A stretch of DNA of 34,472 nt from assembly GCA_003220225.1 (NCBI GenBank), contig QHRU01000074.1:1-34472 (forward strand), given 5' to 3'. Source of the stretch: Candidatus Rokuibacteriota bacterium. Lineage in GTDB: Bacteria > Methylomirabilota > Methylomirabilia > Rokubacteriales > CSP1-6. The translations under genes were made by a program, and so were the position numbers. Within the stretch, counting starts at the first letter, position 1; the number at the start of each line of letters is the position of its first letter. Positions 11,732 to 30,388 of the stretch are shown here, one piece after another. The notes beneath the pieces are model-generated. The model did not search any database and was not told the origin of the DNA. It was given only the letters and a program-made list of their open reading frames with translations.

Positions 11732-14533
<2,802 letters not shown>

Positions 14534-14539
14534 ACGGGC

Positions 14540-15976
14540 ATGCGGCGCACGAAGATCGTGTGCACGATCGGGCCGGCGTCCTCGACGGTCGAGCAGCTCG
14601 ACCGCCTCGCCGCCGCCGGCATGGACGTCGCGCGCCTGAACTTTTCGCACGGCACGCACGCCGAGCACGCCGAGGTCATCCAGCGCATCCGCGAGGCGGA
14701 GGCGCGGTGGAACCGGCCGGTCGCCATCCTGCAAGACCTGCAGGGTCCGAAGATCCGGCTCGGGACCTTCGGCAAGGGCGGCGGCGGGCGGGTGGATCTA
14801 GAATCCGGGCGCCCGTTCGCCCTCTGCCGCACGCCGTGCGTCGGTTCCGCCGAGCGCGTGTTCGTCTCGCCGCCCGAGTACCTCGGACGTGTCAGGGCCG
14901 GCGACGAGATCTGGATGGACGACGGCATGATCCAGCTCCGCGTGGAGGCGACGACGCCGCAGGAGGTTCGCTGCGTCGTCGTCGCGGGCGGCCGGATCAG
15001 CGACCACAAGGGCATCTCGCTGCCGCACGTGGATCTGCCCGCGTCGTGTCTCACCGAGAAGGACGTGGACGATCTCAGGTTCGGCATCGAGCAGCGCGTG
15101 GACTTCGTGGCCGTCTCGTTCGTGCGCACCGCCGACGACATCCGCGAGGTGCGCCGGTTCCTCGAGGCCCAGGGCGCCGACATCCCGCTCGTCGCCAAGC
15201 TCGAGCGTCACGAGGTGCTCGACAACCTGCCCGCCGTGGTCGGCGCCGTCGACGCGGTGATGGTCGCGCGCGGCGACCTCGGCGTGGACGTCCCGCTCGA
15301 GGACGTGCCCCACATCCAGAAGGAGATCATCCGCCAGGCCCACGTGGCCAAGGTGCCGGTGATCGTGGCCACGCAGATGCTGGAGTCGATGGTCACCCAC
15401 ACACGGCCCACCCGCGCCGAGGTGGCCGACGTGACGGCCGCGATCTTCGACGGCGCCGACGCCATCATGCTCTCCGCCGAGACGGCGTCCGGCCGCTACC
15501 CCGCGGAAGCCGTCGAAGTCATGGCGCGCATCGCCGAGCGCGCCGAGCAGGCCACGCTCGCGCTCGAGCCGACGCGCCGGCGGCGCGAAGCCCGCGGGCC
15601 GGTCGGGTTCCCCGAGGCCGTGTCCGACGCCGCCGCCAGCGCCGCGCGCGCGCTGGATGCGCGCGCCATCGTCGCCTTCACGCAGTCCGGTTTCTCCGCG
15701 CGCCTCATCTCGCAGGAGCGGCCGCCCATGCCCATCATCGCGTTCACGCCGTTCGCCGCGGTGCAGCGGCGCCTCGGGCTCACGTGGGGCGTCACCTCGC
15801 GGCTCATCCGCAAGGTGGAGACCACCGACGAGATGGTCGAGGAGATCGAGGCGACGCTGCTCGGCGACGGCACCGTGCGCGCCGACGACGTGCTCGTGAT
15901 CATCTCGGGCTCGCCCATGTGGGTCACCGGCACCACCAATCTCGTCAAGCTCCACCGCGTCGGGGAACGCCGCTGA
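14540..15976 (+). CDS. pyk: Pyruvate kinase
   Basis: 478 residues, full length. RRTKIVCTIGPASST, MDVARLNFSHGTHAEH, ILQDLQGPKIRLG, the B-domain DEIWMDDGMIQL, the substrate-phosphate lysine region FVAVSFVRTADDI, VAKLERHEVLDNL, MVARGDLGVDVP and VATQMLESMV cover the active site. The C-terminal domain with IVAFTQSGFSARLISQERP is complete. It makes pyruvate and ATP from phosphoenolpyruvate and ADP in glycolysis. ATG 14540 is 6 bases after the uvrA stop, so it is likely in the uvrA transcript, an unusual pairing of repair and glycolysis. Its stop overlaps the probable CTG start of the sensor kinase. Confidence 0.97.
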   Translation: MRRTKIVCTIGPASSTVEQLDRLAAAGMDVARLNFSHGTHAEHAEVIQRIREAEARWNRPVAILQDLQGPKIRLGTFGKGGGGRVDLESGRPFALCRTPCVGSAERVFVSPPEYLGRVRAGDEIWMDDGMIQLRVEATTPQEVRCVVVAGGRISDHKGISLPHVDLPASCLTEKDVDDLRFGIEQRVDFVAVSFVRTADDIREVRRFLEAQGADIPLVAKLERHEVLDNLPAVVGAVDAVMVARGDLGVDVPLEDVPHIQKEIIRQAHVAKVPVIVATQMLESMVTHTRPTRAEVADVTAAIFDGADAIMLSAETASGRYPAEAVEVMARIAERAEQATLALEPTRRRREARGPVGFPEAVSDAAASAARALDARAIVAFTQSGFSARLISQERPPMPIIAFTPFAAVQRRLGLTWGVTSRLIRKVETTDEMVEEIEATLLGDGTVRADDVLVIISGSPMWVTGTTNLVKLHRVGERR

Positions 15977-18900
15977 GCAGGAGCCGCCGGCTCCTGCTCC
16001 TCGCCGTCGCCGTCGCGGGCGTGGCGGGGCTCTGGACCGGTGGCGGGGCGCTGCTGCTGCGCGAGGTCGACGCGCGCCACGCCGGCGTGATCGACGTCAA
16101 CCTGGAGCGCGTGGTGGCCACCGTGTCCGAGGAGCGGCGCGGGCTGCTCCGCGAGGCCATGCTGCTCGCGCGGGATCCGGCCGTCGTCGAGGGCGCGCGC
16201 AAGGGCGACTGGGCGACGCTGGCGCGCGGGGCGGCCCGCCTGCGCGCGCTCACGCTCGAGCGCCTCGCCGACCTCGTCGTCGTCCTCGACGCCGGTGGTG
16301 TGGCGCTGCTGCAAGTGCCGGCCACGCCGCGCGTCGAGCTGCCCGCGCCGGCGCTGCCGGGGAACGCCGCGGTGACGCTCGCCGTGCTCGGCGGCCGCGC
16401 CTACCTGCTCGGCGTGGCCGCGGTCGGCGGCGAGCCCGGCGGCGGCCTGGTCGTCGTCGGCCGGCGCGCCGACCGGCTCGGTCCGAGTCTCGGCGAGCGG
16501 GCGGGCGTCGTCGTCGTCAACGGCGACGCTCTGCGCTATTCGACGCTGCCAGAGGCGCCCACGACGGGCTGGGCGGCGGCGACGGCCGCCGGCGTGCGCG
16601 ACGTCGCCGGCGAGCGCTGGCGCCTGAGGCCCGTCGAGGGATTCGGACGCGACGTGGCGTGGGCCGCCGTCCGCGTCGGTGACGGCGTGGCCGAGCGCCG
16701 CCGCGTCGTGCGGGCGCTCGTCGCCAGCGGCGCGCTCGCGGGGCTCGTGGCGTCCCTGGTGGTGGCCTTCGCCACGCGCCGTCGCGTCACCGCGCCGGCG
16801 TGGGCGGCCGCCTCGCGAGCGCCGGCGGCATCCTCCGCGCCCGCCGCCTCCCCGGTGCCCGGGGAGGCCTCCGCCGCTGCCGCGCCGCCGACGAGCAGCC
16901 GCGAGCTCCAGGCGCTCTACGCCGCCGCCGTGGCCGTGGGCAGCGGCACCGAGCTCGAGTCGACGGCGACGCAGACGCTCGACGTGATCTGCACGGTGGC
17001 GCGCATCGATCTCGGCATGGTCTATCGCGTCGATCGCGACACCGGCCGCCTCGCGCTCGTCGCCCACTACGGCATCCCGCCGCGCTACATGGAATTCCTG
17101 AAAACGCGCGCGATCGAGCGCACGCGCATCGGCCAGACCGCGCGTACGGGCGAGTACACGCTGGTGGACCTCGATCCCGCGCGGATCAAGGACCCGACGC
17201 TGCAGGAGGCGGTGACCAGCGAGGGCTATCGCACGCAGCTCTCGCTGCCGATCCCGGTGCAGGGCGCGACCTGGGGCGTGATGGCGCTCGTGTCCAGGGA
17301 GCAGCGCCGCTTCGAGGCCGACGAGCTGACGCTGCTGCACGCGGCCGCGCACCAGGTGGGCCTCGCCGTCGGGCGCGCCGCCCTCTTCGCCGAGCTCCGC
17401 CTGAAGTCGCGGCGGCTCGAGATCCTCACCCGCGTCGCCCAGGGACTGGCGGCCACGCTCCCGGGCCCGGAGATGCTCCAGCGCGTCGCGGAGGCCGCGC
17501 GCGAGATGTTCGACGCGGCCATCGCCCGGCTGTGGCTGATGGACGACGACGGCGACACGCTGTCGGTGCGCGTCAGCGCGGGGCTCGAGGTGGGCGGCGG
17601 CGTCGACCGGCTGCGCGTCGGCGAGGGGTTCGTCGGGCGGGTGGCGGCCACGCGGGCGCCCCTCACCATCGCCGACCTCGCGAGCGACCCGCGTCCGCTC
17701 AACACCGAGCGGCTGCGGGCCCGCGGCCTGGCCGCCTTCGCCGGCGTGCCGCTGCTGGTCGGCGAGCGCGTGCTCGGCGTGCTGGCGATCGGGCTCACCG
17801 AGCGCCACGAGTACTCGGCCGAGGAGCTCGACGTCTTCACCTCGCTCGCCAACGGCGCGGCGGTCGCGCTGGAGAACGCGCGGCTGCTCTCCGGCGAGCG
17901 CACGCGGCGCGAGTATCTCGCCGCGCTGCTCGAGATCAACACGAAGATCGGCGCCAGCGTGATGGTCTCCACCACGACGCTGCTGTCCTCCATCGCCGAG
18001 GAGGCGGCGCGCCTGCTCGACGTGGACAACGCCGGCTTCCGGCTGCTGGAGGGCGACGACCTCGTGCTGGCCGGGTGCGCGGGCACCGCGCGCGAGACGA
18101 TGGTGCGGGAGCGGGTCAAGCTCGGTCAGGGCCTCAGCGGCCGAGCCTTTGCGGCCGGCCACGCGCTCGTGCTCGACGTCGAGGCCGCCGATATCGCCCC
18201 GGACGAGCTCGCCAACGTCCGGCGCCTCGGCTACACGACGTTCCTCGGCGTCCCGCTGAAGATCGGCGGGCGCGCGATCGGGGTGCTCACGTTCCGCGCG
18301 CGCCGGCCCTTCAGCGCGCGCGACCAGGAGCTGGCCGAGGCCTTCGCCGGTCAGTCCGCCATCGCCATCGAGCATGCGCGCCTCGTCCGCGAGGCCTCCG
18401 AGCAGGCCGATCGCATGCGCGCGCTGGCCGACCTCTCCCGCGTCTTCGCCGGGACGCTCGATCCCGACGTCGTGAGCGAGCGCATCGCGGACAGCGTGCG
18501 CAGCCTCTTCTCGTCGGTCTCCGCCTCGCTCTTCCGCGTGGAGCCGGGCAGCGGCGACCTCGTTCCCGTCGCCACGTCGACCGGCCGCGGGGGAGACACG
18601 CCGCCGGCGCCCGTGCTGCCGCGCGGGGTCGGCATCTCGGGCCTGGCCGCGGAGTCGCGTCACGTGGTCGTGTCCTCCGACGTCCCCGCCGATCCCAGGA
18701 TCGAGAAGACGGACGCCGTCCGCGACTGGATCGCCGCCGTCGGCCACTACTCGGCCATCGCGGTGCCGCTGATCGTCAACGACGTCGTGGTCGGTGTGCT
18801 CACGGTCAGCGGCGAGCGCGGCCGCGTCTTCGGCGAGGACGACGCGCGGCTGGCCCAGACCTTCGCCGACCAGGCGGCCCTCGCGCTCGCCAACGCGCGG

Positions 18901-21900
18901 CTCTACGCCGAGTCGGCGCAGCGCCGCGCGGAGGCCGAGGAGCTGGCGCGGCTGGCGCGCACGCTCACCGAGTCGCTCGACGTCTCGGAGGTGGTGGAGC
19001 GCACGGTCGAGAGCGTGCTGCCCCTCTTCCGCGCCCAGTCCTCCGTGGTCCGGCTGCTCCAGCCCGACGGCTCCCTGGCGGCCCTGGCCCTCGGCGGCCG
19101 CACGCGCGCCTATTTCCAGCCCGGCCACGTGCTGCCGCCGGGCGTCGGGGTGCTCGGGCGGGCGGTGGCCGAAGGGCGCGCGATCGCGACCGCCGACGCG
19201 CTCGCCGACGCGGCCACGCGCGTGTCCGACGACCTGCGCGCGAACTTCCAGAATTCGGGCGACGGCGCGGTGCTGGCGGTGCCGATGCGCGCCAAGGGCG
19301 TGATCATCGGCGCCCTCGGCATCGTCGACCGGGTCGGGCGCGTCTTCACCGACGGGGAGGCCGCGCTGCTGCAGGCCTTCGCCGACCAGGCCACGCTCGC
19401 CCTCGAGAACGCGCGCCTCTTCTCGATCGAGCGCTCGCGCCGGCAGCAGATCGCCGCGCTCGCCGACATCGAGCGCGAGCTGGCGGCCGTGCTCGACGCC
19501 GAGCGGCTGCCCGCGCTGGTCGTCGAGCGCGCCACCGGCCTCTTCAAGGCGAGCGGCGCCCTCTGGACGCTGGACGAGGATCGCACGCTGATCCCGCGCG
19601 CGTGGACGGGCCAGGACCTGGCGGGCGAGCGACTGGCGCCGGGCGAGGGCTTCGCGGGCCTGGCCATCGGCGAGCGCCGCGGTCTCATCACCAACGACTA
19701 CGCGCGCTCGCCGCACGCGGCGCCGCGCTTCGTGGCCGCCGGCGTGCGCAGCGTCATCGTACAGCCCGTCATCCTGCGCGACCGTCCCCTCGGCGTGCTG
19801 ACGATGAGCCGCGCGGGCGTCGAGGCGGCCCCCTTCGGCGCCGAGGATCTCGCGCTGCTCCAGAGCTTCGCCGCCCACGCCGCCACCGCCCTCGAGAACG
19901 CGCGCCTGTACGAGGAGGCCACGCGGTATGCGCAACGGCTGCGCGCGCTGGAGGAGGTCAACCGGCTCGTCTCCTCGTCGCTCAATCCCGACGAGGTGCT
20001 CGCCAACCTCGCCCGCGCCATCTCGCAGTTCTTCGACGCGCCCTACGTCAGCGTGTGGGGGCTGGACGAGACCACGGGCCGGCTGCGGCGCACGCTGACG
20101 CACGGCGATCCCGCCCTGGCCGCCGAGCTGCACGACACGCTGGCGCCGGGCGAGGGTGGGATCGGCTGGGTCGTCCAGCGCCGCGAGCCGATCTTCTGGA
20201 CGGAGGTGGCGCGCGACGCGCGCACCGTCGACGCGGCGGCGCTGCTGCGCCACGGGCTCGGGTGGGTGACCGCGTACCCCATCGCCATCGGCGAGCGCGT
20301 GCTCGGCGCGTTCTCGGTGCACCGCACGGCGTCGTGGCCCGTCACGCCGGAGACGGCCTCGCTCATGGGCTCGCTGGCCGCGCAGGCGGCGGTGGCGCTG
20401 GAGAACGCGCGCCTGTACTCGGAGACGACGCGCCGCCTGACGGAGACGCGCGCGCTGCTCGAGGTGGCGGAGATCCTGAACTCCACGCTCGACGCGCGCC
20501 AGCTCCTCAAGCGCCTGGCCATCAAGGTGGCCGAGGTGTGCGACGTGGACCGCTGCTCGATCGAGCGCTGGGAGGGCGACCGCGTCGTCCCCCTCATGTC
20601 GCAGTTCGCCGACGGACGGAAGATGCCGGCCATGTGGGACCAGTTCCTCAGCGTGACCAACCGGCCGCTGCGCGAGGTGCCGACCAACGCGCGCGCGATC
20701 GAGACGCGCCGGCCTGTGATCGTGGAGGACGCGAGCGACGCCTCGCTCACGCCGCCCGACTGGGTGGCGGCCTTCGGCCTCAAGTCGTACGTGGTGGTGC
20801 CGATGCTCCGGCAGGACGAGGTCATCGGCGTGGTCACGCTCGACTACTGCGAGCGCGTGCGACCGTTCGCGCCGTGGCAGGTGGACCTCGCCACCGCCGT
20901 GGTAGGCCAGATCGCCCTCGCGCTGGAGAACACGCGGCTCTACGCGGAGGCGCAGGAGCGGCTGCGCGAGACCACCACGCTGCTCGCGGTGGGACGCGTG
21001 CTCTCGCAGCCGGACGCCGGGGGCGACGTGATGCGGCGGGTCGCGGCCGAGGTCGCGCGCGCCTTCGGCGCCGACATGGTGGGCGCGTACCTGCTCGACG
21101 GGCGCAAGGAGCGCCTCGTGGCGGTGGGCGGCTATCACGTGCCGAAGGATCTGCTGCGCTTCTTCGCGGAGCGCCCCATCGTGCTCGATCGCTTCCCGTG
21201 GCTGCTGGACGCGTGGCGGGCCGGCCGCGCCGTCGCGAGCCCGGACCCGCACGCCGATCCGCGCTTCGACCAGCAGTGGCAGGCCGCGCTGCCGCCGCAC
21301 TCCGTGCTCTTCGTGCCCACGCTCGCCCACGGCCAGCCCGTCGGCGGCCTCTTCCTCGTCTGGTGGCAGACCGGGCACGTGTTCGAGCCGGCCGAGGTCC
21401 GGCTGCTGGAGGGCGTGGCCGCCCAGGTCGGCCTCGCCATGGAGAACGCCGAGCTCGCGCGCCAGACGCAGGTGAAGCTGGCGGAGACCCAGACGCTGCT
21501 CTCGGTGAGCCGCGCGCTGTCGTCGACGCTCGATTTCCAGGCGCTGTTGCGCCATTGCTTGAGGGTGGTGGCGACCACGCTCGGCGCCGACTGCGTCGGC
21601 TCCTGGCTCGTGCAGGAGGACGGCGAGTGGCTGGAGCCCATCGCCGGCTACCGCATCCCGCCCGAGCGGCTCGCCGCCTTCCGCGAGCTCCGCGTGTCGC
21701 TGCTCAAGCATCCCTTCTACGCCGAGGCGGCGCGTACGAGACGGCCGGTCGTCACGAGTGACGCCATGAACGACTCGCGGATCCCGGCGGTGATCCGCGA
21801 GCAGGGGCCGCACCGCACCCAGCTCTTCGTTCCCGTCGTCGTGAAGGACCGGATGATCGCGGCCTTCGCCGCCGTGTGGTGGGAGACCCCGCGCGAGTTC

Positions 21901-23682
21901 TCGGAGGACGAGATCGCGCTCGTGGAGGCCATCGCCAACCAGGCCGGCATCGCGCTGGAGAACGGCCGGCTGTTCGAGGAGAACCGCCAGCGGCTCGAGG
22001 AGCTGTCGGTGCTGCACGACCTCTCGCGCGCGGTCACGGGCCAGCTCGAGCGCGGCGCCGTCGTGGACGCCGTGCGCCGCCACGTCGCGCGCGTGCTGGA
22101 CGCGCGGAATCTCGTGGTGATCGTCCGGGACGCCGAGCGCGAGGAGCTGGAGATCGTCCTGCGCGTCACCGACGGCGCCGACGACTCGCGGGAGCCGCGC
22201 CGCTATCCGCTCGGCGACATCGGCCTGATGTCCGTCGTCCTCGCCACCAGTCGCCCCGTGCGGACCGACGACTACGTGGAGGAGTGCCGGCGGCACGGCG
22301 TGGAGCCCATCGAGGGCTCCGCACAGCTGAAGTCCTGGCTCGGCGTGCCGATGACCGCCGGCGAGCAGGTGCTCGGCGTCATCGTCCTGCGCGGCGGCCC
22401 GCGGCTGTACACGGCCGCCGACGAGCGGCTGCTCCTCAACATCGCCCACCTGGCCGCGCTGGCGCTGCGCAGCGTGCGCCTCTTCGAGGACCGCACGCGT
22501 GCCTACCGCGAGCTGGCCGCCGCCCAGGACCAGCTCGTGCGCACCGAGAAGCTGCGCGCCCTCGGCGAGATGGCCTCCGGGGTCGCGCACGACTTCAACA
22601 ACCTGCTCGCTTCCGTGCTCGGGCGCGCCCAGCTGCTGATGCGCCGCGTGCAGGATCCGCAGCAGCTGCAGTGGCTGCGCGTCATCGAGCGCTCGGCACT
22701 GGACGGCGCGCAGACGGTGCGCCGGCTGCAGGAGTTCACGCGCATCCGCCGCGACCAGCCCATGGTGCCCCTCGACCTGGCGCAGATGGTGGTCGACGCG
22801 CTCGACATCACGCAGTCGCGCTGGCGCGAGGAGCCGGTGAGCCGCGGCATCGTCATCGAGGTGCGCGCCGAGCTGGGCGCGGGGCCGCCGATCCTGGGCG
22901 ACGCCGCGGAGCTGCGCGAGGCGCTGACCAACCTGATCCTCAACGCCGTGGATGCGATGCCCGCGGGCGGGATCCTCAGCCTCGTCACCGGCGCCACCGA
23001 CGACCACGTGGAGGTCGCCGTGTCGGACACGGGCGTCGGCATTCCGGCGGCCGTGCGCGAGAAGATCTTCGACCCGTTCTTCACGACCAAGGGGCCGCAG
23101 GGGACCGGGCTCGGGCTCTCGCTGACCTACGGCATCGTGTCGCGCCACGGCGGCTTCGTCACCGTCGAGAGCGAGGAGGGCCGCGGCTCGACCTTCCGCC
23201 TGTCCTTCCCGTCGGCGGCGATGGTCGAGTCGCCGGCGACGTCACCGGCGCGTGCCGACGCCGCGCCGGCGCGGACGCTGCGCTGTCTCGTGGTGGACGA
23301 CGAGGAGTCGGTGCGCTCCATGCTCGCCGACGTCATCGAGTCCGCCGGCCACCAGGCGACGATGGTCAACGGCGGAGCGGAGGCGATCGAGCGGTTCCGC
23401 GCCGAGTCCTTCGACGTGGTGCTGACCGACCTCGCCATGCCGCGCGTGTCCGGCTGGCAGGTGGCGAGCGCGGTGAAGCAGATCGCGCCGCGCGTGCCTG
23501 TGTTCCTGGTGACCGGGTTCGGCGTGGAGCTGACGCCCGAGGAGCGCCGCGCGCACGGCGTGGACCTCGTGCTCGTGAAGCCGCTGCAGATCCAGGAGAT
23601 CCTCGATGCCCTGGCCGAGGTGGCGCGCAGCGCCGCGTCGTCGGCCCGACCGGAGGACAACCGATGGCCTTTCAGCACCTGA
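15973..23682 (+). CDS. Giant hybrid sensor histidine kinase with eleven GAF domains and a receiver
   Basis: About 2,569 residues. A TM helix (6-27), an extracytoplasmic segment and TM2 (about 249-271) are followed by an Ala/Pro linker. Eleven GAF domains run from about 310 to 2190, each about 165-175 residues and closing with a variant of ALENARLY. HisKA (H2206 in GVAHDFNNLL) and HATPase_c (NLILNAVDAM, DTGVGI, GTGLGLSLTYG) are intact. A receiver follows (about 2436-2555) with D2486 in VVLTDLAMP and the lysine in LVLVKPLQI. No bilin-type cysteine-histidine pair was seen in the GAFs, so ligands are unknown. No ATG or GTG fits before TM1; CTG 15973, overlapping the pyk stop, gives a basic N-terminus. 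GTG 16021 is the alternative but cuts TM1. No DNA-binding output domain is present. Confidence 0.9.
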   Translation: MSRSRRLLLLAVAVAGVAGLWTGGGALLLREVDARHAGVIDVNLERVVATVSEERRGLLREAMLLARDPAVVEGARKGDWATLARGAARLRALTLERLADLVVVLDAGGVALLQVPATPRVELPAPALPGNAAVTLAVLGGRAYLLGVAAVGGEPGGGLVVVGRRADRLGPSLGERAGVVVVNGDALRYSTLPEAPTTGWAAATAAGVRDVAGERWRLRPVEGFGRDVAWAAVRVGDGVAERRRVVRALVASGALAGLVASLVVAFATRRRVTAPAWAAASRAPAASSAPAASPVPGEASAAAAPPTSSRELQALYAAAVAVGSGTELESTATQTLDVICTVARIDLGMVYRVDRDTGRLALVAHYGIPPRYMEFLKTRAIERTRIGQTARTGEYTLVDLDPARIKDPTLQEAVTSEGYRTQLSLPIPVQGATWGVMALVSREQRRFEADELTLLHAAAHQVGLAVGRAALFAELRLKSRRLEILTRVAQGLAATLPGPEMLQRVAEAAREMFDAAIARLWLMDDDGDTLSVRVSAGLEVGGGVDRLRVGEGFVGRVAATRAPLTIADLASDPRPLNTERLRARGLAAFAGVPLLVGERVLGVLAIGLTERHEYSAEELDVFTSLANGAAVALENARLLSGERTRREYLAALLEINTKIGASVMVSTTTLLSSIAEEAARLLDVDNAGFRLLEGDDLVLAGCAGTARETMVRERVKLGQGLSGRAFAAGHALVLDVEAADIAPDELANVRRLGYTTFLGVPLKIGGRAIGVLTFRARRPFSARDQELAEAFAGQSAIAIEHARLVREASEQADRMRALADLSRVFAGTLDPDVVSERIADSVRSLFSSVSASLFRVEPGSGDLVPVATSTGRGGDTPPAPVLPRGVGISGLAAESRHVVVSSDVPADPRIEKTDAVRDWIAAVGHYSAIAVPLIVNDVVVGVLTVSGERGRVFGEDDARLAQTFADQAALALANARLYAESAQRRAEAEELARLARTLTESLDVSEVVERTVESVLPLFRAQSSVVRLLQPDGSLAALALGGRTRAYFQPGHVLPPGVGVLGRAVAEGRAIATADALADAATRVSDDLRANFQNSGDGAVLAVPMRAKGVIIGALGIVDRVGRVFTDGEAALLQAFADQATLALENARLFSIERSRRQQIAALADIERELAAVLDAERLPALVVERATGLFKASGALWTLDEDRTLIPRAWTGQDLAGERLAPGEGFAGLAIGERRGLITNDYARSPHAAPRFVAAGVRSVIVQPVILRDRPLGVLTMSRAGVEAAPFGAEDLALLQSFAAHAATALENARLYEEATRYAQRLRALEEVNRLVSSSLNPDEVLANLARAISQFFDAPYVSVWGLDETTGRLRRTLTHGDPALAAELHDTLAPGEGGIGWVVQRREPIFWTEVARDARTVDAAALLRHGLGWVTAYPIAIGERVLGAFSVHRTASWPVTPETASLMGSLAAQAAVALENARLYSETTRRLTETRALLEVAEILNSTLDARQLLKRLAIKVAEVCDVDRCSIERWEGDRVVPLMSQFADGRKMPAMWDQFLSVTNRPLREVPTNARAIETRRPVIVEDASDASLTPPDWVAAFGLKSYVVVPMLRQDEVIGVVTLDYCERVRPFAPWQVDLATAVVGQIALALENTRLYAEAQERLRETTTLLAVGRVLSQPDAGGDVMRRVAAEVARAFGADMVGAYLLDGRKERLVAVGGYHVPKDLLRFFAERPIVLDRFPWLLDAWRAGRAVASPDPHADPRFDQQWQAALPPHSVLFVPTLAHGQPVGGLFLVWWQTGHVFEPAEVRLLEGVAAQVGLAMENAELARQTQVKLAETQTLLSVSRALSSTLDFQALLRHCLRVVATTLGADCVGSWLVQEDGEWLEPIAGYRIPPERLAAFRELRVSLLKHPFYAEAARTRRPVVTSDAMNDSRIPAVIREQGPHRTQLFVPVVVKDRMIAAFAAVWWETPREFSEDEIALVEAIANQAGIALENGRLFEENRQRLEELSVLHDLSRAVTGQLERGAVVDAVRRHVARVLDARNLVVIVRDAEREELEIVLRVTDGADDSREPRRYPLGDIGLMSVVLATSRPVRTDDYVEECRRHGVEPIEGSAQLKSWLGVPMTAGEQVLGVIVLRGGPRLYTAADERLLLNIAHLAALALRSVRLFEDRTRAYRELAAAQDQLVRTEKLRALGEMASGVAHDFNNLLASVLGRAQLLMRRVQDPQQLQWLRVIERSALDGAQTVRRLQEFTRIRRDQPMVPLDLAQMVVDALDITQSRWREEPVSRGIVIEVRAELGAGPPILGDAAELREALTNLILNAVDAMPAGGILSLVTGATDDHVEVAVSDTGVGIPAAVREKIFDPFFTTKGPQGTGLGLSLTYGIVSRHGGFVTVESEEGRGSTFRLSFPSAAMVESPATSPARADAAPARTLRCLVVDDEESVRSMLADVIESAGHQATMVNGGAEAIERFRAESFDVVLTDLAMPRVSGWQVASAVKQIAPRVPVFLVTGFGVELTPEERRAHGVDLVLVKPLQIQEILDALAEVARSAASSARPEDNRWPFST

Positions 23683-24455
23683 TCGTCGAGCGGGCCGCGC
23701 AGGTCGCCACCGTCACCCTGAACCGTCCCGACGCCTACAACGCGCTGAACCTGGGGCTCGGGCGCGAGCTGTTCACGGCCTCGATCGAGCTCGACGAGGA
23801 CCCCGAGGTGCGCTGCGTCGTCGTCACCGGCAGCGGCAAGTCGTTCTGCGCGGGCGGCGACGTGCGCGACTTCGCCGACAACCTGCCGCGCGTCGGCGCT
23901 CTCATCAAGGAGCTGACGACGTACCTGCACGGCGCCATCTCGCGCTTCTGCCGGAGCGACAAGCCGGTGATCATGGCCGTCAACGGCATCGCCGCCGGCG
24001 GCGGCCTCAGCCTCGCCCTGTCCGGCGACCTCGTGGTCGCGACCGAGTCGGCGAAGCTGACGATGGCGTACTCGAAGATCGCGGCCACGCCCGACGGCTC
24101 GTCGTCGTACTTCCTGCCGCGCCTGGTCGGGCTGCGGCGCGCGATGGAGCTCTATTTCACCAACCGCGTGCTCACCGCGCGCGAGGCGCTCGACTGGGGC
24201 CTCGTCACGCGCGTGGTGCCGGACGCCGAGTTCAAGGGTGCCGTCGACGCGCTCGCGCGCGAGCTGGCGCAGGGGCCGTCGAAGGCCTTCGGCGCCGCCA
24301 AGCGCCTGTTCCACCAGTCGACGTGGGAGAGCCTCGAGACGCAGATGGAGCTGGAGGCGCAGGCCATCGCGAATTCTGGCCGCACCGAGGACTTCAAGGC
24401 CGGCGTCACCGCCTTCGCCAACAAGAAGACGCCGCCGCCGTTCCAGGGGCGCTGA
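23664..24455 (+). CDS. Enoyl-CoA hydratase/isomerase family protein, PaaG-like active site
   Basis: 263 residues, a complete crotonase. The oxyanion-hole segments are GSGKSFCAGGD (56-66) and NGIAAGGGLSLALSGD (107-122). The catalytic glutamate of true hydratases (PEI motif) is absent: this protein has AYSKIAATPDG, with D144, the pattern of PaaG-type ring-oxepin/epoxyphenylacetyl-CoA isomerases and related delta-isomerases. E162 is kept. It therefore probably isomerises rather than hydrates an acyl-CoA, possibly aromatic. ATG 23664 has GGAGG 7 bases upstream and overlaps the end of the kinase gene by 19 bases. Its 3' end overlaps the convergent methyltransferase by 50 bases. Confidence 0.88.
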   Translation: MAFQHLIVERAAQVATVTLNRPDAYNALNLGLGRELFTASIELDEDPEVRCVVVTGSGKSFCAGGDVRDFADNLPRVGALIKELTTYLHGAISRFCRSDKPVIMAVNGIAAGGGLSLALSGDLVVATESAKLTMAYSKIAATPDGSSSYFLPRLVGLRRAMELYFTNRVLTAREALDWGLVTRVVPDAEFKGAVDALARELAQGPSKAFGAAKRLFHQSTWESLETQMELEAQAIANSGRTEDFKAGVTAFANKKTPPPFQGR

Positions 24456-25197
24456 CCGCCACCGCGAACAGCCGATCGCCCGGCAGCGCGACGCGCGCGG
24501 GCGGCACCCGGCGCACGCGCGCGAAGCCCGCGCGGCGGAGTCGCGCCCGCAGCTCCGCCCAGGTCCAGCAGCGCATGACGAATGCGTTCCGCGCGACGGT
24601 GTTCCGCCGCCGCGAGGTGAGCCGGATCTCCTCGCGCAGCAGCAGCCGCCGGCGCGCGGGATCGAGCCGCGTGTCCGAGCGGAAGGACAGGCGACCACGC
24701 GGCGTCCGGACCGTCCGCCCGGTCACGGGCTCGAACCGCTTGCGCGCCGCCGTTCGGCGCCAGTCGCGGACGTCGAGCAGCAGCACGCCGCCGGGCGCGA
24801 GCGCGCGCGCCAGGGTCGCGCAGACGGCGTCGCGCGCGCGGTCGTCCAGCACATCGTTCAGCACGCCGCGGCAGAGCGCGGCGGCAAATGGCGCCCCCGG
24901 ACGATACGTCGTGAGATCGGCCCGCACGAACACGAGTCCGGCGCCTGCGCCCTTGGCCCGCGCGTCGGCGAGCAGCCTCGCCGAGCGGTCCACGCCGACG
25001 ACGCGGTAACCGCGCCGCGCCAGCGCGCGCGCGTAGTTGCCGGTGCCACAGCCGGCGTCGAGGATCCGCGCGGGCGGTCGGACGCCGGCGGCGCGGAGGA
25101 GCGCCGCCAGCCGTCGCACCCGGGCGGCGCTGGCGTCCGGGACGACGAGGTCGAAGGCCCAGGCGAAGCGGTGGTAGAGCGGACGCTGCGATGCCAT
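24406..25197 (-). CDS. Class I SAM-dependent methyltransferase
   Basis: 263 residues. Motif I ARILDAGCGTGNYARALA (about 44-60) binds SAM; VVGVDRSARLLADARAKG is the acidic strand 2 and VFVRADLTTY the adenine-contact region. The motif IV region is FAAALCRGVLNDVLDD, and LAPGGVLLLDVRDW follows as in the Methyltransf_11/25 type. The C-terminal part has a beta-rich substrate region (LLREEIRLTSRRRNTVARNA). The small-molecule substrate is unknown. The start MASQRPLYHRFAWAFD at 25197 lies 24 bases from the divergent selenoprotein gene. The last 50 bases overlap the crotonase gene on the other strand. Confidence 0.88.
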   Translation of the reverse strand: MASQRPLYHRFAWAFDLVVPDASAARVRRLAALLRAAGVRPPARILDAGCGTGNYARALARRGYRVVGVDRSARLLADARAKGAGAGLVFVRADLTTYRPGAPFAAALCRGVLNDVLDDRARDAVCATLARALAPGGVLLLDVRDWRRTAARKRFEPVTGRTVRTPRGRLSFRSDTRLDPARRRLLLREEIRLTSRRRNTVARNAFVMRCWTWAELRARLRRAGFARVRRVPPARVALPGDRLFAVAVSAPGTAAASSCWRRR

Positions 25198-25221: not shown

Positions 25222-25968
25222 ATGAAGGCGCGCCTCTACACCCGCCCCGGCTGATCCTCCTGCGCCAAGACGAAGGAGCTGCTCTCGTCTTGGGGGGTCG
25301 AGTTCGACCCCATCGACGTCCAGGCGGACGTCGGCGCGCGCGAGGAGATGGTCCGACTCGGCATCCCGCGCCCGCCCGGCGTCGCCCTCGGCGACCGCGT
25401 CGTGCACGGCTGGAACCCGGACGGCTATGCGGCGCTGCTCGGCGTGACCTACCGCGCGGCCAGACGCTTCTCGCCGGCCGAGCTGGCGTCACGACTGGAC
25501 CGCGTGCTGGAGTCCGCGCAGGGGCTCATCGCCCGCTTCGACGCGCGTCAGATGGATCACGTGCCGCCCGAGCGCAAGCGCACGCTGCGCGACCTCGCGT
25601 TTCACGTCTTCCGGCTGTCGCTGGGTTTCGTCGACGCCGTGGACCGCGCCGAGCTGCCGGAATCCGTGTACGAGGAGCGCGCCTATCCAGAATTGGTGAG
25701 CGGCGGCGACGTCGCGCGCTACGGTGCGCTGGTGCGCGCGCGGCTCAGCGGCTGGTTCCAGGGCGCCGGCGCCGACGAGTACACGCGGACGGTGCAGACG
25801 TATTACGGGCCGCAGGCCGCCGACGCTCTGCTCGAGCGCACCACGTGGCACGCCGGCCAGCACCTGCGTCAGCTGTACGTGCTCGCCGAGCGTCTCGGGG
25901 TGACGCCGCCGGCGCCGCTGCCGATGGACGCGCTCGCCGGCCTGCCGCTGCCCGACGCGCTCTGGTAA
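25222..25968 (+). CDS. Selenocysteine glutaredoxin fused to a DinB domain
   Basis: Read with UGA as selenocysteine, this is a 248-residue protein. Residues 1-75 are a glutaredoxin: MKARLYTRPG, U11, SSCAKTKELL, VEFDPIDVQ, and GDRVVHGWNPDGYAALLGV. Homologues have CxxC at 11-14; here the first cysteine is TGA (25252-25254) and C14 is kept. The rest (about 80-248) is a DinB four-helix domain with metal histidines in DLAFHVFRLS and WHAGQHLRQL. A 9-bp SECIS hairpin starts 10 bases after the UGA. Inferred role: thiol-dependent reduction or transfer, the DinB domain binding substrate or thiol cofactor. Callers not allowing Sec would start it at 25348 and lose the redox site. The gene is monocistronic, diverging from the methyltransferase. 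Confidence 0.87.
25265..25293 (+). promoter_or_regulatory. Candidate bacterial SECIS element of the glutaredoxin-DinB gene
   Basis: A perfect 9-bp stem, CCAAGACGA (25265-25273) with TCGTCTTGG (25285-25293), encloses the 11-base loop AGGAGCTGCTC. The loop has G at positions 2 and 3, like the AGGU loop of E. coli fdhF. It begins 19 bases after the UGA, inside the range known for bacterial SECIS elements. Such a perfect stem right after an in-frame UGA is hard to explain by coding alone. Confidence 0.75.
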
Positions 25969-28564: not shown

Positions 28565-29206
28565 TCACACGTCCCGCGCCAGCCTCACGCCGTAGTCGGA
28601 GTAGCGCAGCGCGGGCGGCAGCGACGAGCGGTGACCGACGGCGCTCCACGGATCGGCGTGCCGCCAGGCGCCGCCGCGGCTGACGCGACGCGTGCCCGTC
28701 GGCGGCCCGATCGGATTCATGGCCGGCGACCGCGCATAGTAGTCGTCGGCGTACCAGTCGGCGCACCACTCGTGGCAGACGCCGGAGAGGTCGAAGAGCC
28801 CGAGCGGATTGGGCGGCGTGGCGCGCACGCGCGGCGGCTGCGTGAAGCGCTGCGCCGGCGCGGCGCCCGGCCAGGGCAGGCGGCCGTGGGCGCCGCCGCC
28901 GCGCGCGGCCTTCTCCCACTCGGCTTCCGTCGGCAGCCGCGCCCCCGCCCACGTCGCGAACGCGCGGGCCTCGTCCCACGACACGCCGACCACCGGCTGC
29001 TCGGGATCGTCGAAGCCGGCCTCGCGCCAGAAGGCGGGTGGCGCCGCGCCGGTGGCGGCGAGATAGCGCGCGTAGGCGGCGTTGGTGACGGGCGTGACGG
29101 CGATGGCGAACGCGTCGAGCCGCACGGGGTGCACGGGCCGCTCGCTCGGTGGCCCGTCCGCGTCGCCCATCAGGAACCCGCCGGCGGCGACCTCCACGAA
29201 GTCCAC
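28565..29206 (-). CDS. SUMF1/FGE-fold protein lacking the catalytic cysteines
   Basis: About 213 residues, a compact formylglycine-generating-enzyme sulfatase-modifying (SUMF1) domain: [95 protein letters not shown] and YGVRLARDV. True FGEs end with a cysteine pair in RC(A/S)xR and GFRC; here the positions read GHRSSLPP and GVRLA. Both cysteines are missing, so sulfatase activation is unlikely; a binding or other SUMF1 role is inferred. The start is uncertain: GTG 29206, or GTG 29197, both just after the TATA core shared with the divergent aminotransferase gene. Confidence 0.8.
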
Positions 29207-29211
29207 GAGGA

Positions 29212-29217
29212 TATAAT
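29212..29217 (+). promoter_or_regulatory. -10 box of the aminotransferase gene, leaderless
   Basis: A perfect TATAAT (29212-29217) is followed by 7 bases and the ATG at 29225. No clear -35 hexamer is found. The same core read backwards (TATATC) lies just before the divergent SUMF1-fold gene, whose start is only 18 bases away. Confidence 0.5.
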
Positions 29218-29224
29218 GCGCCCC

Positions 29225-30388
29225 ATGAATGTCGCGGAACGGATGGGACGGCTCGGGACCGAATCGGCCTTCGAGGTGCTCGCGCGCGCCAGGGCCCTGG
29301 AACGGCAGGGCAAGCAGGTCATCCACCTCGAGATCGGCGAGCCCGACTTCGACACGCCGGAGCACATCAGGGACGCGGCCAAGCGCGCCCTCGACGCGGG
29401 CGCGACGCACTACGGGCCGTCGGCCGGACTGCCGGAGCTACGCGAGGCCATCGCGAAGCACATCACCGAGACGCGCGGCGTCCCTGTGTCCCTCGAGCAG
29501 GTGGTCGTCACGCCGGGCGCCAAGCCGATCATGTTCTTCACGATCATGGCGCTGGCGGGCCACGGCGACGAGGTCATCTATCCGAATCCGGGCTTCCCGA
29601 TCTACGAGTCGGTCATCAACTTCGTGGGCGCGACGGCGGTGCCGATCCCGCTGCGCGAGTCGAGCGAGTTCGGCTTCGACCTCGAGCTGCTCGAGAGGTC
29701 CATCTCGTCGCGCACGAAGCTGATCGTCATCAACTCGCCGGCGAACCCGACGGGCGGGGTGCTGGACCGCGCGCAGATCGATCGCGTCGCGGCCCTGGCG
29801 GCGGCGCGGAACATCCCCGTGCTGTCGGACGAGATCTACCGGCAGTTCCTCTACGACGGCGAGTTCGTCTCGATCTACAACCGCCCGGGCATGGCCGAGC
29901 GCACGATCATCCTCGACGGCTTCTCCAAGTCGTACGCGATGACCGGCTGGCGGCTCGGCTACGGCGTCTTCCCGCCGCCGCTCGTCGAGCACATCACGCG
30001 GCTGATGGTGAACTCGGCCTCGTGCACGGCGTCGTTCGTGCAGCTCGCCGGCGTCGCCGCGCTCCAGGGCGAGCAGGCCGGCCGCATGGTCGCCGAGTTC
30101 AAGCGGCGGCGCGACATCCTCGTGGACGGGCTCAACAAGCTGCCCGGCGTGAAGTGCCTGCGCCCGCGCGGCGCGTTCTACGTGTTCCCGAACATCACCG
30201 GCACCAGGCGCTCGTCCGCGGAAGTCGCCGAGCGCCTGCTCAACGAGGCCGGCGTCGCCGCCCTGTCGGGCGCCGCCTTCGGCGCCCACGGCGAGGGCTA
30301 CCTCAGGTTCTCCTACGCCAACTCGGAGGCGAACCTCCGCGCCGCCCTCGACAGCATGCGCCCGGTCTTCGAGTCGCTCGCGCGCTGA
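29225..30388 (+). CDS. PLP-dependent class I/II aminotransferase (aspartate aminotransferase family)
   Basis: 387 residues, fold type [18 protein letters not shown] opens the small domain. [19 protein letters not shown] follows. [23 protein letters not shown] and the PLP lysine K235 in [18 protein letters not shown] form the cofactor site, and [20 protein letters not shown] carries the substrate-carboxylate arginine. This subgroup covers aspartate, alanine and aromatic aminotransferases; the substrate is not resolved. ATG 29225 sits 7 bases after TATAAT. Its stop is overlapped by the probable CTG start of the nucleotidyltransferase. Confidence 0.93.

Follow-up and report, generated by a model that had tools for sequence, protein, structure and literature searches.

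Selenocysteine (Sec) glutaredoxins (PF00462, UxxC), which have cGrx1 (PDB 7c10/7c12) as a solved relative, have the glutaredoxin fold with Sec as the first residue of the UxxC motif. The fusion protein described here has such a head, to which cGrx1 is the nearest solved relative by sequence profile. The known Sec glutaredoxins are small and consist of a single domain, whereas the fusion carries an additional DinB domain of about 165 residues that is conserved together with the head. NrdH-redoxins (1h75 and 4hs1) are also like the head in sequence and fold, the GWNPD of the head aligning with the GFRPD of NrdH; unlike the fusion, NrdH uses Cys, is a single-domain protein, and serves ribonucleotide reductase. 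The UXX-star families (NF041211, NF041212, and NF047338) share with the fusion a glutaredoxin-like fold and a Sec at the first redox position and differ from it in the second Cys and the DinB partner, both present in the fusion. Membership in UXX-star was rejected because the scores were far below the NCBIfam cut-off (34.5 versus 66 bits for NF041212).

The body of the fusion has the four-helix fold and the three-histidine pattern of the S-transferase-like (STL)/DinB-YfiT proteins BstA/YfiT (1rxq), DR0053 (6iz2), and mycothiol S-transferase (8f5v). The identity to these proteins is only 14 to 21%, the Sec redoxin head belongs to the fusion, and thiol-transferase activity is not known for it. 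For most members of this superfamily, we know of no identified natural substrate. The same architecture with Cys in place of Sec exists in uncharacterized proteins with 28 to 37% identity (Rhizobium, Caballeronia, Variovorax, and Roseomonas plasmids), which public records name "DinB family protein" or "glutaredoxin domain-containing protein."

A 2026 review (PMC13188914) tables 119 prokaryotic selenoprotein families, including glutaredoxin (UxxC), UXX-star glutaredoxin-like proteins, and the families that Haft and co-workers described in two papers on selenoproteins; a DinB fusion is absent from this table. DinB is not mentioned in the other selenoproteome literature that we checked, which excludes the full text of the two Haft papers, a text search found no paper joining selenoprotein and DinB in the sense of a fusion, and no NCBIfam model matched the read-through protein above its cut-off. 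The remark of an earlier sequence-only reading of this DNA, that it knew of no selenoprotein family described with this architecture, stands within a scope that leaves out the two Haft papers and Sec-annotated copies in RefSeq. The Sec-redoxin/DinB architecture is apparently unlisted, and the Cys-type fusion is already in public records under generic names.

The window, a stretch of 34,472 nucleotides, corresponds to contig C144 in a Rokubacteria/Methylomirabilota metagenome-assembled genome (MAG) of 6.0 Mb that is 97% complete. It contains the following features.

23664 to 24455, plus strand: crotonase/enoyl-CoA hydratase family gene, an upstream neighbor kept in Rokubacteria (start approximate)
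24406 to 25197, minus strand: SAM methyltransferase-like gene between the crotonase and fusion genes, probably outside the system
25222 to 25968, plus strand: coding sequence of the Sec-glutaredoxin/DinB fusion, 248 amino acids with UGA as Sec (ATG at 25222, TAA at 25966 to 25968)
25234 to 25404, plus strand: glutaredoxin domain (PF00462, residues 5 to 61), NrdH/YruB/cGrx1-like
25252 to 25254, plus strand: in-frame TGA, almost certainly Sec11, with which the UxxC redox motif begins (PG-U-SSC, codon 11)
25261 to 25263, plus strand: Cys14, the invariant resolving cysteine of U-S-S-C
25265 to 25293, plus strand: candidate bacterial SECIS hairpin with a 9-bp stem and its loop 19 nucleotides past the UGA
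25495 to 25875, plus strand: DinB_2 domain (PF12867, residues 92 to 218), S-transferase-like fold
25603 to 25605, plus strand: His128, first of three invariant histidines and a predicted metal ligand (pattern like H67/H160/H164 of BstA)
25849 to 25863, plus strand: HAGQH with His210 and His214, the second and third predicted metal ligands

The TGA at codon 11 is the only internal stop in a frame that is otherwise open over 248 codons; an internal ATG at 25348 opens a 206-amino-acid ORF. The read-through protein matches PF00462 with 46.3 bits (cut-off, 22.9) and PF12867 with 36.1 bits (cut-off, 24.8). Both the lone in-frame TGA on the first redox position and the fusion of a glutaredoxin to a DinB domain, as proposed in the sequence-only reading, are thus borne out. 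In the alphaproteobacterial member P0002, PF00462 is the sole Pfam match at an E-value of 0.001. The computed AlphaFold2 model has two domains and is confident (pLDDT, 93; pTM, 0.87), and Foldseek matched it to YfiT (1rxq), DR0053 (6iz2), and NrdH (4hs1) and more weakly to mycothiol S-transferase (8f5v). By sequence profile the head is closest to the Clostridium glutaredoxin cGrx1 (7c10) and to NrdH. The assignment of the fusion to the STL/DinB superfamily was tested by PF12867 score and by fold and passed on both.

In a 45-row alignment, the residues U/C11, S13, C14, P52, H128, W178, Y194, R206, H210, Q213, H214, R216, and Q217 are invariant. P52 is the cis-Pro of the glutaredoxin head and, together with U11 and C14, meets the criterion of C/UxxC plus cis-Pro. 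Conservation of the ERTxWHxxQHxRQ helix and of the metal-triad histidines equals that of the redox motif. H67, H160, and H164 of BstA/YfiT are the only residues common to all eight Bacillus subtilis bacillithiol transferases, which need metal (PMC5815605). H128 and the HxxxH pair match this three-histidine pattern, on the basis of which metal binding is predicted.

A contig scan found 15 relatives in Rokubacteria, one Methylomirabilota MAG, SAR324, and several Alphaproteobacteria; codon 11 is TGA in most of them, SAR324 included, and TGC in two (L009 and L010). Of the 95 genomes of the phylum, 49 gave a strong TGA-containing match (partial in 2 of them), and another genome (G001) has a divergent Sec glutaredoxin-DinB copy with 28% identity, a PG-U-TNC motif, and an altered HxxxH helix (FHLKQ). 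We saw no full-length Cys form in these 95 genomes, where the matches without a stop were DinB only. There were 33 matches in 32 of 385 alphaproteobacterial genomes, 19 with TGA and 14 without a stop; a Sec form is present in Vineibacter terrae, an alphaproteobacterium that has been cultured. Among 58 distinct homologues, codon 11 is TGA in 47 and TGC or TGT in 11, and nothing else occurs at this site. Cys replaces Sec in other Alphaproteobacteria and in Betaproteobacteria, and a Sec copy and a Cys copy (L085 and L139) coexist in one genome (G404). The fusion is kept in dozens of soil bacteria, and in its homologues residue 11 is Sec or Cys and the DinB domain follows, which is what the sequence-only reading had named as supporting evidence. 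That reading would have fallen if all homologues started at about 25348 without a glutaredoxin region or if TGC had been misread as TGA. Neither is the case: the only proteins that start after the glutaredoxin region are additional DinB-only paralogues (L149 to L153) in one Rokubacteria genus, 55 to 60% identical to the body of the window protein, and TGA recurs in independent assemblies and is therefore not a read error.

The host genome encodes the complete Sec machinery, the absence of which would also have refuted the proposal. The genes selA (C5:17007-18359), selB (C5:15074-16951), and selC (tRNA-Sec, C5:19682-19775, exceeding the gathering score) form one cluster on contig C5. The selD gene (G000 C159:12780-13730) has one in-frame TGA of its own, and the host SelD is probably a selenoprotein too. 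A selA above the cut-off accompanied the TGA copy in 20 of 21 genomes, versus 3 of 14 genomes with only Cys copies (Fisher P value of 9e-6, not corrected for relatedness). Within the phylum, 45 of 50 genomes with TGA had selA above the cut-off. No full selA was detected in the remaining 5 or in genome G111, which may reflect incomplete assemblies of these MAGs.

The coding sequence is under purifying selection before and after the UGA, in line with the claim that coding is intact on both sides. A comparison of 29 Rokubacteria sequences gave a pN/pS of 0.40 over the 8 codons that precede the UGA and of 0.38 over codons +1 to +31, all of which lie ahead of the internal ATG at 25348. The pS in the latter stretch (0.33) is below that of its flanks (0.47 and 0.45), which is what an additional constraint on the RNA would predict. 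The perfect 9-bp hairpin noticed in the sequence-only reading is present, with CCAAGACGA (25265 to 25273) pairing with UCGUCUUGG (25285 to 25293) at 9 of 9 positions around the loop AGGAGCUGCUC. Alone, the window hairpin is only modestly unusual (z of −1.4 against dinucleotide shuffles and −1.7 against synonymous-codon shuffles). The consensus fold of 24 distinct Rokubacteria sequences has a z of −4.8 against synonymous recoding, a control in which the protein sequence is held constant while codons are reshuffled, and none of 200 shuffles was equally low; its stability thus exceeds what codon choice would give. Compensatory changes in Rokubacteria occur at region positions 19/31 (A-U to C-G in 5 sequences) and 14/36 (A-U to G-C in 2 sequences), and the same two pairs are broken in a few sequences. 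The Alphaproteobacteria have a different hairpin about 31 to 47 nucleotides past the UGA (z of −2.4, P value of 0.015), with compensatory changes from U-A to G-C and from U-A to C-G. The mean single-sequence z is −1.87 for Sec forms versus −0.80 for Cys forms. A downstream hairpin kept by selection as a putative SECIS-like element therefore passed our tests in Rokubacteria and Alphaproteobacteria, as far as sequence comparison can tell. A third hairpin type, in the three Hyphomicrobiaceae Sec sequences, is not significant alone.

A maximum likelihood tree of 53 proteins requires three changes between Sec and Cys, and its starred branches force at least two. The Hyphomicrobiaceae Sec forms (L014, L015, and L017) sit within the Cys group, which suggests that this family may have regained Sec from Cys; repeated loss is possible instead. 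The fusion family as a whole provides a natural series of Sec/Cys exchanges, among them these Sec forms, nested among Cys forms and with a different hairpin, and the genome that has both forms.

From the computed conservation and decoding capacity, we are close to certain that the UGA at 25252 to 25254 is read as Sec, although there are no protein or 75Se data. The alternative is a true stop codon or a MAG error, with a DinB protein made from the ATG at 25348 and a vestigial glutaredoxin stretch. The 206-amino-acid ORF and the DinB-only paralogues of one genus would fit such a protein. They are set against the recurrence of TGA at this codon in about 70 independent genomes from three lineages and Cys elsewhere, the glutaredoxin residues conserved on both sides, the full sel machinery, and the co-occurrence with selA; the chance left to this alternative is negligible. 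A stop codon or pseudogene, a read error, and an internal start at 25348 were rejected on the conservation across assemblies and lineages.

How the Sec residue works is less certain. We consider it reasonably likely, without being sure, that a Sec-decoded NrdH-like redoxin acts in cis for the metal site of the DinB domain. The UGA would be decoded by the SelA, SelB, SelC, and SelD of the host, directed by the adjoining downstream hairpin. The product would be an NrdH-like redoxin with a Sec11-Cys14 selenenylsulfide/dithiol center, fused to a four-helix DinB domain with a His128/His210/His214 site, the metal of which is inferred. A thioredoxin-reductase-type reductant may recycle the head, which could feed electrons to the DinB metal site or resolve a thiol/disulfide intermediate formed there; the reductant and the coupling in cis are both inferences. 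Sec would accelerate the exchange step, and the Cys forms would perform the same job without selenium. The inferred substrate would probably be a small molecule of catabolism or detoxification. It counts against this explanation that a body without a head is possible, as the DinB-only paralogues of one genus demonstrate.

The choice of reductant rests on the low-molecular-weight thiols. In the host genome, BshA (TIGR03999) had no match above the cut-off, and neither of the two glutamate-cysteine ligase families searched (GCS2 and Glu_cys_ligase, the only two glutathione routes covered) was found. Hence, a dependence on bacillithiol or glutathione was not adopted, and reduction of the thioredoxin-reductase type is favored by inference; the absences fit an NrdH-like head that does not need either thiol. 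The sequence-only reading had paired a thiol-redox head with a possible thiol-transferase body. The redoxin head and the DinB fold hold, and the link to bacillithiol or mycothiol is less supported. Because the head resembles NrdH redoxins and cGrx1, the label "thiol transferase" for the body remains an inference from the superfamily only.

The undetected genes for glutathione and bacillithiol synthesis can also be read differently. The Sec11 selenolate might replace a low-molecular-weight thiol as the nucleophile at the DinB metal site, making the protein an S-transferase-like (selenyl-transfer) enzyme with a protein-bound nucleophile. The head is covalently linked to the body, and the STL enzymes of B. 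subtilis are metal dependent and use bacillithiol (PMC5815605). The conserved Cys14, however, indicates redox cycling over plain nucleophilic transfer. Moreover, the Cys forms belong to Alpha- and Betaproteobacteria, groups that would be expected to make glutathione, and there are no distance or activity data. We regard this reading as unlikely, though worth keeping in mind, and equally so the idea that Sec11 and the three-histidine metal form one composite active site with a protein-borne selenol in place of a soluble thiol cofactor. If true, such a Sec-metal site would give the DinB/S-transferase-like superfamily a catalytic strategy that is new to it. It is rather improbable that the head acts as a general module for the reduction of disulfides, peroxides, or methionine sulfoxide and that DinB only binds or localizes without chemistry of its own. 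The best match of the glutaredoxin domain is cGrx1, and a Clostridium Sec glutaredoxin reduces the selenoprotein MsrA (cited in PMC13188914), but the histidines and the helix of the body equal the redox motif in conservation. A part in resistance to metals or metalloids has been proposed for several selenoproteins (PMC13188914), and Sec11 and the histidines could bind soft metals such as mercury, arsenic, or copper. For a metal-handling factor we see very little chance, as there are no metal-resistance genes among the neighbors examined and a UxxC is, on a fold like that of NrdH, a classic redox site.

With the fusion, selenium enters the DinB/S-transferase-like superfamily, and the known selenoproteins gain a widespread and apparently unlisted architecture. 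Ordinary gene calling drops the redox head and leaves a DinB fragment or nothing. With the Sec form in the cultured V. terrae and Cys forms in Rhizobium and Caballeronia, direct tests are possible both of what the protein does and of what Sec offers over Cys.

The genomic context says little about the substrate, since the neighbors are not conserved beyond Rokubacteria. Many Rokubacteria have a crotonase/enoyl-CoA hydratase gene immediately upstream and in the same orientation; in the window this gene ends at 24455, and the opposite-strand methyltransferase gene intervenes before the fusion gene. No neighbors are common to Rokubacteria and Alphaproteobacteria. The surroundings of the plasmid Cys copies vary and are often catabolic, with a run of amidase, isochorismatase, and ABC-transporter genes near the Roseomonas copy and acyl-CoA and tricarboxylate-transport genes near the Variovorax copy. 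A conserved operon as a clue to the substrate was therefore rejected; because the plasmid Cys forms lie among catabolic genes, a role in catabolism or detoxification is plausible but weakly supported. Scans for promoter and terminator patterns at the locus found nothing.

Elsewhere in the window, UvrA is encoded on the plus strand (11732 to 14533), and a plus-strand ORF of 3,360 amino acids (13600 to 23682, start unrefined) with 11 GAF domains, HisKA, HATPase_c, and a receiver encodes a giant hybrid sensor kinase. EgtB joins DinB_2 with an FGE-sulfatase domain; the window encodes a stand-alone FGE-sulfatase domain protein on the minus strand (28568 to 29410), not adjacent to the fusion gene.
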